IMG/VR virus record: IMGVR_UViG_3300025645_000218
Span: 1 to 34,724 of that record
DNA: 34,724 bases
Source: a virus
Reading direction: 5' to 3' (one strand)
The notes under the pieces are model-generated. The model had not been told where the DNA came from. It searched no databases and worked only from the letters and a program-made list of their open reading frames with translations. Positions within the stretch are counted from its first letter, which is position 1. The number at the start of each line of letters is the position of its first letter. Positions 1,561-7,245 of this stretch are shown piece by piece. A program made the translations under genes and the position numbers.

Positions 1561-1839
1561 ATGGCTTTAGGGATAGACAGAGAAAAGTATAACGCTATGG
1601 TTAACTACTTCCGTAATAATATAGGCGGAGTTTTAGCCGTGGACCAGGTAAAGGCTGGCGAAGTGGTCTTAAATTCTATGGGGGTAAAAGTTACCCCCGT
1701 TAGGGCTACAAAAGAAAAAGAGGAACTTTTTATAATGGTAGACCACTATTTAAGAAATTACAACCAATACCCAGACGAGCCTTTAGTTGAGTTTGATAAT
1801 GAGAAGGAATATTTATTTATTAAAAATGGGGTAAAATGA
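1561..1839 (+). CDS. Hypothetical protein between nuclease and helicase
   Basis: I do not recognise this 92-residue protein. Its ATG directly follows the stop codon of the nuclease gene, and its own end overlaps the helicase start by four bases (ATGA), so it is almost certainly co-translated with both. It is soluble and mixed in composition, with no signal peptide, membrane segment or cysteine motif. The N-terminal half (DREKYNAMVNYFRNN) looks helical. Position suggests an accessory to the recombination or replication proteins, but that is inference from context only. Confidence 0.75.
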   Translation: MALGIDREKYNAMVNYFRNNIGGVLAVDQVKAGEVVLNSMGVKVTPVRATKEKEELFIMVDHYLRNYNQYPDEPLVEFDNEKEYLFIKNGVK

Positions 1840-3167
1840 AACTAAGACCATACCAAAAACAAGCAATTCAAAGCCTTAGAGCTAATTTTAAACAAGGTAA
1901 AAAAGCCGTCCTTTTGTGCATACCTACAGGAGGAGGTAAAACCGTAGTTTTTACCACTATAGCGAAAAACGCAATATTAAAAGGGGCTAAAATTATGATA
2001 GTCTGCGACCGTAAAGAGCTAATTAGTCAGGCTAAATACAACCTTAACCTTTTAGGGCTTAGTCCTACTATTATAGCCCCAGGCTACCCACAGGACCCGA
2101 ATAACTGTTATTTAGCTAGTGTAGATACTTTAAGGAGGCGAGGACTCCCAGAGGTAGACATCGTTATAATGGACGAGGCCCACAAACAAACTTTTGACAA
2201 AGTTATTTTTAAGTACCGCGAGGACTTCCAGGACCCCTTTTTTATAGGAGCAACCGCGACGCCAATTAGAACAGGAAAACAGGGCGAACTAGCAGGATAT
2301 TACGACGCAATAGTAGAGCCTACCACTATTAACGCTTTATTATTTGAGGGGTATCTAGTCCCTTGTAGAACTTTCGCCGCTAAAATAGACTTTAGCGACG
2401 TGAAAATGACAGGAGGAGACTACAATAACGGGGACCTTTATAAAGAGTTTAATAAGTCCGCCCTATACGACGGCCTAGTTTCTAACTGGGAAAAGTTCGC
2501 AAAGGATAAAAAAACGCTTATTTTTAATGTAAACGTGGAACACTCTATAAAAACAGTAGAGGCGCTAAAAGCGGCAGGGTACGACGCTAGACACCTAGAC
2601 GGGAAAACACCAGACCGACAGAGAAAACAGCTTTTACAAGACTTTAAAAACGGCGTTTTTAATATTCTATCTAATTGCTCAGTACTTACCACAGGGTACG
2701 ACGAGCCGAGCATTGAGGCAATAATAGTAAATAGAGCTACTAAAAGCCTACCTTTATGGCTGCAAATGTGCGGCAGAGGCTCTCGGACCTTTGAAGGTAA
2801 AAAAGGATTTACAGTAATAGATATGGGGGCTAATTGCTACGAGCATGGGCTATGGGAGGACGCGAGAAATTGGACGCTAGAGAAAAAAAGAAGAAAGTCC
2901 GCAGGAGTGGCCCCGGTTAAAATTTGCGAGGAGTGCGAGGCTATGAACCCGGTAAGCGCTAAACTTTGTAACGAATGTGGCGAGCCTTTTAATATCAAGA
3001 AAAAAGAATTATTAAAAGCCGAATTTACAGAGGTAAAAAGCAATAGAGGCGGGGCGGTTAAATTTGAACCTAGAGGTAAAACTAGAACAGAGTTACACGA
3101 ACACGCAAAAAAAATGGGGTATTCTAACGGGTGGGCTCACGTTCAATATAAATTGTACAACAAATAA
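1836..3167 (+). CDS. SF2 DEAD/DEAH-type helicase with C-terminal zinc ribbon (RadD-like)
   Basis: This is a superfamily 2 DNA helicase of 443 residues. Visible motifs in order are: motif I IPTGGGKT (29-36), motif II DEAH (113-116), motif III GATATP, a helicase C domain with TTGYDEP, and motif VI QMCGRGSR. After the two RecA-like domains comes a four-cysteine zinc ribbon, CEEC (364-367) and CNEC (378-381), and a basic tail. Domain order and zinc ribbon recall bacterial RadD/YejH, which acts in double-strand break repair and recombination. With the adjacent nuclease and SSB-like protein it forms a recombination/replication set. Substrate preference is unknown. The start overlaps the preceding gene by four bases. 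Confidence 0.9.
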   Translation: MKLRPYQKQAIQSLRANFKQGKKAVLLCIPTGGGKTVVFTTIAKNAILKGAKIMIVCDRKELISQAKYNLNLLGLSPTIIAPGYPQDPNNCYLASVDTLRRRGLPEVDIVIMDEAHKQTFDKVIFKYREDFQDPFFIGATATPIRTGKQGELAGYYDAIVEPTTINALLFEGYLVPCRTFAAKIDFSDVKMTGGDYNNGDLYKEFNKSALYDGLVSNWEKFAKDKKTLIFNVNVEHSIKTVEALKAAGYDARHLDGKTPDRQRKQLLQDFKNGVFNILSNCSVLTTGYDEPSIEAIIVNRATKSLPLWLQMCGRGSRTFEGKKGFTVIDMGANCYEHGLWEDARNWTLEKKRRKSAGVAPVKICEECEAMNPVSAKLCNECGEPFNIKKKELLKAEFTEVKSNRGGAVKFEPRGKTRTELHEHAKKMGYSNGWAHVQYKLYNK

Positions 3168-3215
3168 GTTACTTTTTATTTTGTAACAAGTATTAAGTTT
3201 TATACATTGCGGTAA

Positions 3216-3231
3216 ATTAACCAATAAAACA
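3216..3231. repeat. Left copy of 16 bp direct repeat flanking the Cys-repeat gene
   Basis: ATTAACCAATAAAACA occurs here, 8 bases before the ATG of the Cys-repeat gene, and again at 3838-3853 over its last codons. Both copies are followed at slightly different distances by CACAATA. The wider upstream stretch 3205-3237 also resembles the sequence before the methyltransferase gene at 3912-3946 (CAT, then CGG, then ATTAAC or TTATTAAC, then an A-rich leader). This reads as the boundary of an inserted cassette. Confidence 0.75.
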
Positions 3232-3238
3232 CAATAAA

Positions 3239-3856
3239 ATGGAAAAGACAAACAACTATTGGACAGATTTAAACAATAACAAGTGGGATTGCGACATTTA
3301 CACAGAGGAACAAGCGGAGAAGTTAAGCAAAACTTTAATTAATTGTTTTAACTGTATTAATTGCATTGATTGCATTTCTTGCAGTGATTGCCGTTATTGC
3401 AGTTCTTGCCGTTCTTGCCGTTCTTGCAGTGATTGCAGTTCTTGCAGTGATTGCCGTTATTGCAGTTCTTGCCGTTCTTGCCGTTCTTGCAGTGATTGCA
3501 GTTCTTGCAGTTCTTGCAGTGATTGCAGTTATTGCAGTGATTGCAGTGATTGCCGTTATTGCCGTTATTGCCGTTATTGCAGTTCTTGCCGTTCTTGCCG
3601 TTCTTGCAGTGATTGCAGTGATTTTAAAACCAACCCTCAAAGAATAACATCAAATAAAATAGGGTCAAGAGAGAGACAAACAACCTATTATTGGAATGAA
3701 GAAACAGAGCAAATAGTTTGTGGATGTTTTAAAGGAACTTTGAAAGAGTTTAAAGACGCTATAAAAAAAGAACATAACGATAACAAATATTCAAAAGAGT
3801 ATTTTAAATGGATTGAAGCCGTTGAAGTTTATAAAGGATTAACCAATAAAACATAA
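3239..3856 (+). CDS. Cysteine-triplet (C-x-x) repeat protein with CGCFKGTLKEF C-terminal domain
   Basis: This 205-residue protein has three parts. Residues 1-35 are a short N-terminal region (WTDLNNNKW, YTEEQAEKL). Residues 36-128 are 31 uninterrupted triplets that all begin with Cys: first CFN, CIN, CID, CIS, then combinations of CSD, CRY, CSS, CRS and one CSY. Residues about 150-200 form a C-terminal domain with CGCFKGTLKEF and a downstream His, a pattern I recall from C-terminal domains of repeat proteins in phages and mobile DNA. A three-residue period is compatible with a six-residue left-handed beta-helix coil or an extended metal- or disulfide-bridged rod; neither is proven. The gene uses GAT/TGC/AGT codons unlike the flanking phage genes and is bounded by direct repeats, so it looks acquired. 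Function unknown. Confidence 0.8.
   Translation: MEKTNNYWTDLNNNKWDCDIYTEEQAEKLSKTLINCFNCINCIDCISCSDCRYCSSCRSCRSCSDCSSCSDCRYCSSCRSCRSCSDCSSCSSCSDCSYCSDCSDCRYCRYCRYCSSCRSCRSCSDCSDFKTNPQRITSNKIGSRERQTTYYWNEETEQIVCGCFKGTLKEFKDAIKKEHNDNKYSKEYFKWIEAVEVYKGLTNKT
3344..3622 (+). repeat. 9 bp tandem repeat tract, 31 units, with a 63 bp internal duplication
   Basis: The tract consists of 9-mers of the form TGC-(A/C)GT-(T/G)(A/C)T, each encoding Cys-(Ser/Arg)-(Ser/Asp/Tyr), after four more divergent units at the 5' end. Units 5-11 (3380-3442) are repeated exactly as units 12-18 (3443-3505), a seven-unit 63 bp tandem duplication. Every repeat Cys is TGC. Because the period is a multiple of three and contains no stop in most frames, the other frames and the opposite strand are also open; those are by-products of the repeat. 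Confidence 0.95.
3838..3853. repeat. Right copy of 16 bp direct repeat flanking the Cys-repeat gene
   Basis: Second exact copy of ATTAACCAATAAAACA, overlapping the last codons (LTNKT) of the Cys-repeat gene. It runs directly into the 38 bp cassette-end element at 3854. Confidence 0.75.
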
Positions 3857-3891
3857 CACAATAGTAAAAGCCGTTTCAATGGCGTTTTAAT
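3854..3891. repeat. Cassette-end element copy 1 (attC-like or terminator-like)
   Basis: This 38 bp element follows the Cys-repeat gene and is nearly identical to 4640-4676 after the methyltransferase gene: two substitutions and one extra T. Its core is an imperfect palindrome, AAAAGCC (3866-3872) against GGCGTTTT (3881-3888), with one bulged G and a short loop. On the right, CTTATATGTTG (3896-3906) can be loosely aligned with the complement of the left arm TAACACAATAG. Hairpin with a bulged base plus loosely paired outer arms is the layout of integron attC sites. A weak terminator is the simpler alternative. Confidence 0.6.
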
Positions 3892-3946
3892 GTACCTTAT
3901 ATGTTGTTGTGCATAGTACGGATTATTAACAGAAAAACTAAATAGA

Positions 3947-4630
3947 ATGAATAAAATATTTAATGATAATGCTATTGAAATACTTGATAGGATGATAGCA
4001 AAAGAATACAAAGTTGATTTGATAGCAACAGACCCACCATACAAAGTAACTACAAGGGGAGGTTATACTAATGCTGGAGGTATGATGCTTGACGATAAAA
4101 TGAGAAAAGGGAAAGTATTTAAAGAAAACACTTTAACTATTAAAGAATGGTTGCCAAAACTCTATGAGGTTTTAAAAGATACAGGGCATTGTTACATAAT
4201 GTGCAATAATAAAAATCTTTATCCTTTTTTAGATGCTGTGAATGATAGTGATTTCAACTTAGTTAAAACTATGGTATGGGCAAAGGATAATAAAATAATG
4301 AGCCAAGCTTATATGAGCCAATTTGAGTTTGTTTTATTCTTGCGAAAAGGAAAGTTTGTAAGGATAAATAATTGCGGAACAAGTGATTTATTACAATACC
4401 CAAACACAAAAACAAAAGGAGAAGATAGCAAGCCAATACACCCAACAGAGAAGCCTATTGATTTAATGAAAGTATTGATTGAAAATAGCAGTAAAGAAAA
4501 TGAGATAGTTTTAGACCCATTTTTAGGTGTAGGTACTACTGCAATAGCAAGTAAAGAAACAAAAAGACAATACATAGGAATAGAATTAGATGAGCATTAC
4601 TATAATATTGCTAATGAAAGGTTAACGTAG
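3947..4630 (+). CDS. DNA methyltransferase (N6-adenine/N4-cytosine, DPPY type)
   Basis: This 227-residue enzyme probably transfers a methyl group from S-adenosylmethionine to adenine N6 or cytosine N4 in DNA. The catalytic motif IV DPPY is at residues 29-32, HPTEKP at 165-170, and the SAM-binding motif DPFLGVGTT at 190-198. Motif IV preceding motif I is the order of beta-class enzymes. The region between them (about 40-160), which would hold target recognition, is short. No restriction partner is visible, so an orphan enzyme protecting phage DNA is likely. Codon use (GAT, AAT, ATA) differs from the phage core, and a copy of the 37-38 bp element lies on each side, so it appears to be acquired DNA. 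Confidence 0.9.
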   Translation: MNKIFNDNAIEILDRMIAKEYKVDLIATDPPYKVTTRGGYTNAGGMMLDDKMRKGKVFKENTLTIKEWLPKLYEVLKDTGHCYIMCNNKNLYPFLDAVNDSDFNLVKTMVWAKDNKIMSQAYMSQFEFVLFLRKGKFVRINNCGTSDLLQYPNTKTKGEDSKPIHPTEKPIDLMKVLIENSSKENEIVLDPFLGVGTTAIASKETKRQYIGIELDEHYYNIANERLT

Positions 4631-4639
4631 TATTACCAC

Positions 4640-4676
4640 TAACACAACAGTAAAAGCCGTTTTAATGGCGTTTAAT
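4640..4676. repeat. Cassette-end element copy 2
   Basis: This 37 bp copy begins 9 bases after the methyltransferase stop and matches 3854-3891 apart from two C/T changes and one T fewer. The palindromic core is the same: AAAAGCC against GGCGTTT with a bulged G. The flanking right arm (TTAGTTATTG) differs from that of copy 1. Each of the two foreign-looking genes is therefore followed by one copy. Confidence 0.6.
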
Positions 4677-4707
4677 ATTAGTTATTGACTAAATAAGACC
4701 TAAAAAA

Positions 4708-4735
4708 CTTTACACATAAACAGAAACGTGTAAAG
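4708..4735. promoter_or_regulatory. Inverted repeat, possible operator or hairpin
   Basis: CTTTACAC (4708-4715) and GTGTAAAG (4728-4735) are perfect inverted repeats separated by 12 A-rich bases. No T-run follows, so it is not a standard terminator. It lies upstream of the small membrane protein and primase-helicase genes and could be a regulator binding site. This is inference from symmetry only. Confidence 0.4.
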
Positions 4736-4762
4736 AAAATAGAGAAAAGTTAACATTAAAAA

Positions 4763-4822
4763 ATGATTGAAACATTCTACACGTTGGAAATAGTACTAAT
4801 ATTACTAATAACTAAAATATGA
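4763..4822 (+). CDS. Possible 19-residue leader peptide
   Basis: A very short hydrophobic open frame (MIETFYTLEIVLILLITKI) whose TGA overlaps the next ATG in an ATGA junction. The overlap is the only reason to list it. It could be a translationally coupled leader for the small membrane protein or a chance frame. Confidence 0.2.
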   Translation: MIETFYTLEIVLILLITKI

Positions 4823-4980
4823 AAGAAATAAACAAATATCTATTAGGGCCTGGATGCTGCCTAATATTAGCAATTTTTAAAATGGAAGGGTGGGCCGTCC
4901 TTTCGTGGTATATGGTTTTTTTACCTATATGGCTGCCCGCTGCTCTTTTATTATTAGCGCTATTAATTATAAAAAAATAA
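4819..4980 (+). CDS. Small membrane protein, 53 residues
   Basis: A short gene not previously recognised by length-limited gene finding. It starts MKEINKYLLGPGCCLILAI. Two hydrophobic segments (about residues 13-20 plus 26-36, and 38-51) are separated by a short polar stretch KMEGW and followed by the basic end IIKK, so it is probably an inner-membrane protein with one or two passes. Its base composition matches the phage core (GCC, CTA, GGG codons) rather than the foreign insert before it. It lies 30 bases before the primase-helicase. Function unknown; no family recognised. Confidence 0.55.
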   Translation: MKEINKYLLGPGCCLILAIFKMEGWAVLSWYMVFLPIWLPAALLLLALLIIKK

Positions 4981-5010
4981 CTACCTTTAAAACCCTTTAA
5001 AAATCAAACT

Positions 5011-7245
5011 ATGAAAATAAGCTACTTTAATAACATTAAGCAAACAAGCCCGGACTCTGAAACATCTATACTAGAGTTTTTAAACAACGTAAAAGCGGGG
5101 ACCTGGGCAAGGTTAATAGACCCAATTAACAAAGAGACAGACAAGAAAAAAAGAGGAGCTTTAAAAACTAAGACACTACCATATGTTACAATTAGCGGCA
5201 CTTTTAAAAAGCGGTCTAACTCGGAAATAGTAAAACACTCCGGCTTTATTTGCCTAGATATTGACGAAATAGACGACCTAGCCCAGGACTGGAACAAAGT
5301 AATAAACGACCCCCATACCTACGGAGCTTTTAAGTCCGCATCCGGTAGAGGTATAGCCGTGTTAGTTCAAATAGACCCAGCTAAACACTTAGATAATTTT
5401 TTAAGCCTAGAGGCTTACTACATGGAAAAGTATAGCATAAGCCTAGATAAGGCTTGTAAAGACGTAGCGAGGGCTAGATTTGTGTCTAATGACTCCCAGG
5501 CGTTCGTTAATACAAACGCTAAACAATTTAAAATAGTACTTAAAAAAGTTAAAAAAGTACCGGTTAATAAATTGCCGCAAATAATAACCGGAGCCTCAGA
5601 CATAGACTTTTTAATAGAACAGATTAACGACAACAACCTAGACATTACTAAGGGGTCCTACGATATTTGGCTGGAAATAGGCTTTGCCCTCGCCTCAGAA
5701 ATGGGCGAAAGCGGACGGCCTTATTACCACTCTATAAGTAGATATTATGATAAATACAAAGCCGAGGACTGCGATAAACAATATAATAAATGCCTAAAAC
5801 ACGAAGGTAGAGGCATAAATATAGCTACTTTATTTCACTACGCTAAAGAGGCTAACCTTAACCTAGTTAGCCCCAAAACTAAACACATAGTAGCGGCAGC
5901 AAAACAAGCAAAAAGGGGCGGACGGTCCGCGGAGTCAGTAAAAGAACTATTAACTAAAATAGATGGAATAACAGAAAAAGAAAGCGAGGAGCTAATTAAT
6001 AAAGTTTACGACTCCAGCGTAGACCTCAAATTAACTGAGGACCTAACCAACCTAGAAAAACTGGAAATGTTTATAACCAATAACTATAACCTTAAAAGAA
6101 ACGAGATTAATAGGTATATTGAAAACAACGGCAAAGAAGTAGATACCGTGTTTAATAACTCGGTCTACTTCCAGGTGCAAAGAATTGTAAGCGAAAAAAT
6201 AGCATACGACACCGTAGAGCGGTTAATTTCCTCCGACTTTATACCAGAATATAACCCCTTACAAGACTTTTTAGAGGCCCATAGCGGAGACAACCCCACA
6301 GGATTAATAGATAAGTTAGCCGAATGTATAGAGACAGACACGGGGTTAAAAGTGGATGACGTAGACCCTAGTTACAAATTTCTTTTTGTAAAAAAATGGT
6401 TCGTCGGTATTATTGCATCAATATATAAACAACATAGCCCCTTATTATTAGTACTTACAGGAGGGCAGAACACAGGGAAAACCGAATTTTTTAGACGGCT
6501 ATTGCCTAAAGAATTTAAACCGTATTACGCAGAGAGTAAACTAGACGCAGGAAAAGACGATGAAATATTAATGACTCAAAAGCTCCTAATAATGGACGAC
6601 GAGCTGGGCGGTAAGTCTAAGCAAGAGGCTAAAAGACTAAAGGAGTTAACCAGTAAGGACGAATTTACATTAAGGGAGCCTTACGGCCGTAAAAACGTTA
6701 GATTAAAGCGTTTAGCGGTCCTATGCGGGACTTCTAACGATGAACTAGTATTAAACGACCCTACAGGAAATAGACGTATAATACCTATAAACGTGTTAAG
6801 CATTAACCACGACCTTTATAACTCAATAAATAAAAAAGACCTAATAGTAGAGGCTTATAATTTATATAAAGACGGTTATAACTGGCAGCTAACAGGCGAG
6901 GACGTCCAAAAACTTAACAAAAATACTAGAGAATTTGAGCAAATTAGAAGTGAATCCGAATTAATTAGCCAATTTTATAAGACCCCAGAGTATAAAAAAG
7001 GGCCAGACGTAATAGAACAACTAACAGCAACCCAGATTAAAACAAATATAGAGGAGCAGACAGGGCAAAAATTAAGCATTTGGAAAATAGGACAAGAATT
7101 AAAAGCGCTAGGTTTTGACCAAAAAAGCGTTAAAATGTTTGGCAATACTAAGCGAATTTATGAGGTAATTGCTTTAGATGAAAAGAAAAACGCCGAGGAG
7201 CTTTATAATCCAAAAAATGAAGAAAACGAAAATTTTGCGTTCTAG
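5011..7245 (+). CDS. Primase-helicase: BT4734-like primase, PriCT-2-like and VapE/VirE helicase domains
   Basis: This 744-residue protein is the central replication enzyme. The N-terminal domain (about 30-185) carries GFICLDIDEI, with acidic D83 and D85, and SGRG at 111-114, the pattern of BT4734/VirE_N primase-like domains. A PriCT-2-like segment follows (about 205-285; YDIWLEIGFAL, GRGINIATLFHYA). The C-terminal half is an SF3/AAA-like helicase of the VapE family: Walker A GGQNTGKT (484-491), an acidic LLIMDDELGG motif near 530, and REPYGR and GTSND further on. It presumably lays down primers and unwinds the phage origin, and the iteron-rich non-coding region lies immediately downstream. 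Phages with this architecture often have no DNA polymerase, and none is visible here. Confidence 0.88.
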   Translation: MKISYFNNIKQTSPDSETSILEFLNNVKAGTWARLIDPINKETDKKKRGALKTKTLPYVTISGTFKKRSNSEIVKHSGFICLDIDEIDDLAQDWNKVINDPHTYGAFKSASGRGIAVLVQIDPAKHLDNFLSLEAYYMEKYSISLDKACKDVARARFVSNDSQAFVNTNAKQFKIVLKKVKKVPVNKLPQIITGASDIDFLIEQINDNNLDITKGSYDIWLEIGFALASEMGESGRPYYHSISRYYDKYKAEDCDKQYNKCLKHEGRGINIATLFHYAKEANLNLVSPKTKHIVAAAKQAKRGGRSAESVKELLTKIDGITEKESEELINKVYDSSVDLKLTEDLTNLEKLEMFITNNYNLKRNEINRYIENNGKEVDTVFNNSVYFQVQRIVSEKIAYDTVERLISSDFIPEYNPLQDFLEAHSGDNPTGLIDKLAECIETDTGLKVDDVDPSYKFLFVKKWFVGIIASIYKQHSPLLLVLTGGQNTGKTEFFRRLLPKEFKPYYAESKLDAGKDDEILMTQKLLIMDDELGGKSKQEAKRLKELTSKDEFTLREPYGRKNVRLKRLAVLCGTSNDELVLNDPTGNRRIIPINVLSINHDLYNSINKKDLIVEAYNLYKDGYNWQLTGEDVQKLNKNTREFEQIRSESELISQFYKTPEYKKGPDVIEQLTATQIKTNIEEQTGQKLSIWKIGQELKALGFDQKSVKMFGNTKRIYEVIALDEKKNAEELYNPKNEENENFAF

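Follow-up and report, generated by a model that had tools for sequence, protein, structure and literature searches.

The segment at positions 3169-4681 of the window (the whole stretch of DNA analysed here, a linear virus record of 34.7 kb) is best read as two integron-type gene cassettes forming a CALIN (cluster of attC sites lacking an integrase), located in a phage between its helicase and primase genes and filled in trans by a host integron integrase (IntI), a reading to which we assign a probability of about 80%. Each cassette would comprise one gene and one attC-like site. A CALIN was defined as at least two attC sites, each located 3' of a gene and in the same orientation, with no integrase nearby; the record displays two attC-like sites after two genes and no Phage_integrase domain. 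The cassette interpretation had been proposed in the first-pass annotation of this DNA, and it is sustained by a family of similar sites, a relative with other cassettes, relatives in which the position is empty, and the lack of an integrase.

Regarding the enzyme, neither a Phage_integrase domain nor a tyrosine recombinase was detected in the record, as the first-pass annotation had stated (14/14 control genomes were positive), so that the record carries no intI gene, and no attI site was recognized in it, these two being the marks of a complete integron. A host IntI supplied in trans would be the simplest agent: during infection, the host-encoded enzyme would most likely recombine folded single-stranded attC sites, inserting, exchanging or removing whole cassettes at a tolerant spot, and transcription of the phage operon would probably express them. 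Proteins above the family cut-off of the IntI model TIGR02249 were found in 105 of the 395 Bacteroidota genomes sampled, and attC-like arrays adjoin IntI in some of the sampled genomes; the IntI genes of a few of those 105 contain stop codons.

The phage and its two candidate cassettes

The window phage is contractile-tailed, and its structural genes include portal, head maturation protease, major head protein, tail sheath, tape measure and baseplate, along with an endolysin. Among named phages, the nearest have Flavobacterium, Nonlabens and Cellulophaga as hosts; because these relatives infect Flavobacteriaceae, the host is probably a flavobacterium. The insert lies among replication genes, as initially described: on its left is a helicase gene (1836-3167, plus strand; Pfam ResIII/Helicase_C, phrog_16) and on its right a VapE-type primase/helicase gene (5011-7245, plus strand; Pfam VapE-like and PriCT_2). 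A small membrane-type ORF (4819-4980, plus strand; phrog_1374, 39% identity in L041) separates the last site from the primase gene; it is phage-borne and also present in L030. G+C content is 34% in the first cassette and 30.5% in the second, versus about 40% in core genes. The earlier claim that both genes have foreign codon use did not hold, their synonymous-codon scores of 0.083 and 0.154 being within the core-gene range of 0.068-0.201.

The first candidate cassette (3169-3903, plus strand; right limit at 3903 or 3906) consists of a gene for a Cys-repeat protein followed by an attC-like end. The start of a circular integron cassette, on its R' side, pairs with the cassette's own end, on the R'' side. 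The predicted start, GTTACTTTTTATT (3168-3180, plus strand; G|TT cut after 3168), is complementary to the R'' end of the same cassette: compared with the end at 3857 in reverse complement, 11 of its 13 positions match (p about 0.004, anchored on GTT); over 17 nt the own-end test gave p 0.02, and cross-comparisons were not significant. This own-end complementarity puts the beginning of the cassette at 3168/3169, immediately following the stop codon of the helicase gene. Consequently, of the block originally delimited at 3205-4680, the left edge had to be moved, as 3168/3169 fits better than 3205, and the block more likely spans 3169-4681. The second candidate cassette (3904-4681, plus strand; left limit at 3904 or 3907, with the start at 3903/3904 or 3906/3907) consists of a methyltransferase gene and its attC-like end, and its own-end complementarity is weak (11/17, p 0.05).

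The own-end signal, clear for the first cassette of the window and weak for the second, was strong over a larger set: when, for each gene in 14 phage cassettes, the best preceding GTT and the best following AAC were chosen automatically, 0 of 100,000 permutations were as good, and a hand-picked set of 12 cassettes gave the same outcome. Such start-end complementarity is as expected of segments that would formerly have been circles.

The first gene (3239-3856, plus strand; phrog_15341) encodes a 205-aa protein with a Cys at every third residue. Relatives were found in 30 viral contigs (L203-L232), and weakly in Campylobacter phages as well; in the contigs inspected, the gene is part of an ordinary operon, and no clear attC accompanies it. 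The family has a conserved C-terminal domain (CGCFKGTL.EF), and the AlphaFold model of the protein was poor (pLDDT 43) and was set aside. At one contig end (positions 1-700), L040, a relative of the window phage, encodes a GSGDGDG/GYGDG-type repeat protein with a C-terminal domain, which may be a counterpart of the Cys-repeat protein. The perfect 16-bp repeat described around the first gene was recovered by the repeat finder as exact copies of ATTAACCAATAAAACA on the plus strand, at 3216-3231 and, within the end of the gene, at 3838-3853; the likeness reported between 3205-3237 and 3912-3946 was not recovered by it. The second gene (3947-4630, plus strand) encodes an N6/N4 DNA methyltransferase of 227 aa (PF01555, E 2.6e-40) that is 56% identical to the methyltransferase of a Fusobacterium phage; searching 395 Bacteroidota genomes at 1e-50 yielded no match. 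The enzyme may shield phage DNA from host restriction.

The helicase-primase interval and the attC-like sites

The interval between the helicase and primase genes is a variable position, so called because related phages are empty or carry other genes there, and both occupied phages end it with the same att-like site. The primase relatives were found with a two-sequence alignment, an earlier single-protein scan having given none. The closest comparison is L030 (L041), with amino acid identities to the window of 75% for the helicase, 73% for the primase and 70% for the terminase. Between helicase and primase it carries about six single genes, most with attC-like ends and none related to the two genes of the window. 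The last sites of both phages are identical in 48/53 bases (91%), versus 71% in flanking genes, and the genes preceding them are unrelated. Conversely, helicase and primase are separated by about 82 nt in L040, L042 and L045 and by about 75 nt in L047, none of which has a cassette there, so that both inserts of the window are missing and the search for relatives lacking them, suggested at the outset, was successful. L043 and L044 carry one small gene at this position and no att site. Contigs G003 and G008, considered as another empty-site pair, were ruled out, being the same phage.

These comparisons bear on a variant of the preferred reading, in which a piece of a bacterial array was passively captured once, in a transduction-like event, with no turnover on the phage. 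Pieces of chromosomal integrons are documented in Vibrio anguillarum prophages (PMC9892861), a precedent for such capture; nonetheless, we consider this variant unlikely, given that the cassettes of L030 at this locus are different ones and its last site is near-identical, and that genes were repeatedly gained or lost at one site in a second phage group (L004, L006, L033 and L170; see below).

The sites of the window were compared with the attC core-box consensus RYYYAAC ... GTTRRRY, whose boxes are mutually complementary. Site 1 (3851-3912, plus strand) has an R'' box ACATAAC at 3851-3857, a stem at 3867-3872/3881-3887, and an R' box that is either GTTGTTG at 3903-3909 or GTTGTGC at 3906-3912; site 2, the last of the block (4637-4687, plus strand), has R'' CACTAAC at 4637-4643, a stem at 4653-4658/4667-4673, and R' GTTATTG at 4681-4687. 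Both display AAC and GTT cores, with about 6/7 pairs, and deviate at consensus R/Y positions; in particular, the R' boxes GTTATTG and GTTGTGC deviate from GTTRRRY. The sites are 786 nt apart, each after its own gene, and the spacing of site 2 (TAAC, 9 nt, stem, 7 nt, GTTA) is common to other phage sites. The near-identical elements first noticed after both genes were confirmed at 94% identity over 34 nt (3854-3887 versus 4640-4673), as was the bulged palindrome, with AAAGCC against GGC-G-TTT. The core pattern occurs twice in the window, both times at these elements, versus 0.01 occurrences expected.

Models of the sites gave a mixed outcome. With R1, a model of the AAAGCC family trained without site 1, this site scored 51.7 bits. 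For the proposed covariance-model check, R2 was used, a generic attC model of our own built from seven sites, excluding the AAAGCC family and including those of Polaribacter phage P12002L; its highest-ranking hit in the window was site 1, at a modest 17.5 bits (E 0.14), and it gave no plus-strand match to site 2. A family member in another phage (L025) scored 39.6 bits (E 5e-6) under R2. When both sites were folded on both strands, the DNA-fold z-scores (-0.2 to +0.8) were no better than those of shuffled sequences, and folding alone is therefore not diagnostic here. Since R2 is weak on site 1 and misses site 2, and folding is unremarkable, the attC membership of the window sites is probable rather than proven, and their activity is what we infer. 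A simple arm-plus-hairpin scan was dropped as a site detector, because it failed to distinguish known sites from background.

Beyond the window, members of the AAAGCC core family lie in seven other viral contigs, downstream of single genes that are unrelated; their pattern is TAAC, a spacer of about 9 nt, AAAGCC-GTTTYAAT-GGCNTTT, a spacer of about 7 nt, and GTTA. Over the family as a whole, 83% of the arm helix is paired. When viral contigs were scanned with the relaxed pattern AAAGCC-N-TTT-NN-ATGGC-N-TTT, 33 loci were obtained. Arms were scored as TAAC or CAAC at a distance of 8-12 nt ahead of the stem and GTTA at 6-9 nt beyond it; both were present in 8/15 distinct matches with a GTTTYAAT loop and in 0/15 with other loops (Fisher p 0.002), and six of the armed matches have the exact 9 and 7 nt spacing. 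The exact pattern with both arms fixed had zero matches in viral contigs. Thus, the search suggested initially for the 38-bp element succeeded in part: it recurs in viral contigs after unrelated single genes with its outer arms conserved, and no chromosomal array with the AAAGCC core was found, there being a single exact, terminator-like match in 84,980 genomes, and only weak matches and no array for R1 over 395 Bacteroidota genomes. In addition, L005 (IMGVR 3300017613) displays on its minus strand, at about 3300-6400 in locus coordinates, about five single genes between classical attC-like sites of the form CCTAACGGTTACTG...GAGTGTTAGG.

We think it quite improbable that the 37-bp elements are intrinsic terminators carried in with two horizontally acquired genes and involve no site-specific recombination. 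Both core stems were indeed picked up as terminator-like, the stem stands alone between genes in one Bacteroidota MAG, similar armless stems (AAAGCC..GGCTTTT-like) occur in other phages, and the fold energy is unremarkable. Nevertheless, the T-tracts are poor, and terminators would leave unexplained the TAAC...GTTA arms with their 9/7 nt spacing, the start-end complementarity of the cassettes, and the multi-gene arrays with classical attC-like sites in L005 and at the same spot in L030.

R''-side junctions in a second phage group

A second phage group, whose members share a sigma-like gene at 98-99% amino acid identity (L004, L033, L170 and L169, the last being the same as L006), carries insertions at an attC-like site. 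In L169 the junction reads gene0-AAGTAA|C[core0]. Exactly between this TAA and C, L004 has a 308-nt insert with a 77-aa gene, and L170 a 765-nt insert with a GIY-YIG-like gene, a label given by eye (Pfam returned only a weak NUMOD-like match); in L033 there is a 377-nt insert, which deviates by two bases. Flanks are 95-98% identical among L169, L004 and L033, and those of L170 are 77-78% identical on the left and 93-95% on the right. The attC-like site lies upstream of the sigma-like gene; in most of the about 30 relatives at 76% identity (e.g., L183-L196), an ordinary terminator takes its place.

It is very unlikely that the helicase-primase interval is a mosaic hotspot, where homologous or illegitimate recombination between phages uses attC-like sequences merely as short shared homology: the sites are sufficiently conserved to provide homology, mosaicism is a feature of small phage genomes, and L043/L044 have a small gene at the window locus without an att site, and yet whole genes inserted at TAA|C in 95-98% identical flanks, as well as the own-end complementarity, point to site-specific exchange of circles.

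The original core stays on the right flank in every insertion of L004, L033 and L170. We read the exchange as occurring at TAA|C of R'' because the canonical cut at G|TT of R' would not leave the core on that flank. In laboratory attC sites, removing or inverting the extrahelical bases shifts exchange to R'' (PMC2727003). It is thus a tentative proposal, which we hold to be possible but short of even odds, that some Bacteroidota phages keep an attC-like site anchored at a fixed position in the genome, at whose R'' a trans-acting integrase adds single genes by the upstream stop codon. The last site would then stay with the phage flank and only the preceding genes would be swapped, the reverse of the canonical polarity. 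The L004/L006/L170 junctions show what looks like this polarity, and that of L033 nearly so; the conserved last site of the window and L030 would fit it, which is compatibility and not proof. The position of the bulged base was dropped as proof of strand polarity, since an active P12002L site with a similar right-arm bulge is reported to be recombined more efficiently through its bottom strand (PMC9892861). If true, R''-side polarity would bear on integrase strand choice outside laboratory systems.

Relation to known integron systems

CALINs in virulent phages have been published, including methyltransferase cassettes in Polaribacter phage P12002L (Qi et al., 2023; PMC9892861), and phage attC sites were recombined by IntI1 (PMC9892861). 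The window is therefore an additional phage CALIN of a kind already known as such, and for the locus comparison, the core family shared across phages and the R''-side junctions no prior report was found in the literature searched. The same locus, empty, with two or with about six genes, provides comparative evidence for cassette turnover on phages. Through cassettes, phages would have a route to gain accessory genes one at a time, DNA methyltransferases among them, and they could transfer cassettes between bacterial integrons.

The chromosomal integrons of Bacteroidota (TIGR02249) resemble the window in the single genes with NNNTAAC/GTTANNN attC-like sites that adjoin IntI in some of the genomes sampled; unlike the window phage, they have IntI, and the AAAGCC core was not found beside IntI in the genomes searched. 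For the R''-side insertions in the L004/L006/L170 group, the attC mutants of Bouvier et al. (2009; PMC2727003) constitute a precedent; those sites are laboratory mutants of the Vibrio cholerae VCR, whereas strand use in the phages is deduced from the junctions alone. Among the published phage CALINs, the closest is that of P12002L, which infects a flavobacterium, as the window phage probably does, and which has no integrase, DNA methyltransferase cassettes and attC sites after genes; its sites score with R2, a model that includes them, and one shares the GTTTTAAT loop. In contrast to P12002L, the window belongs to another phage lineage, has its cassettes at a helicase-primase locus, with a distinct AAAGCC core and a Cys-repeat candidate cassette; for the window, related phages with other cassettes or with none are shown.
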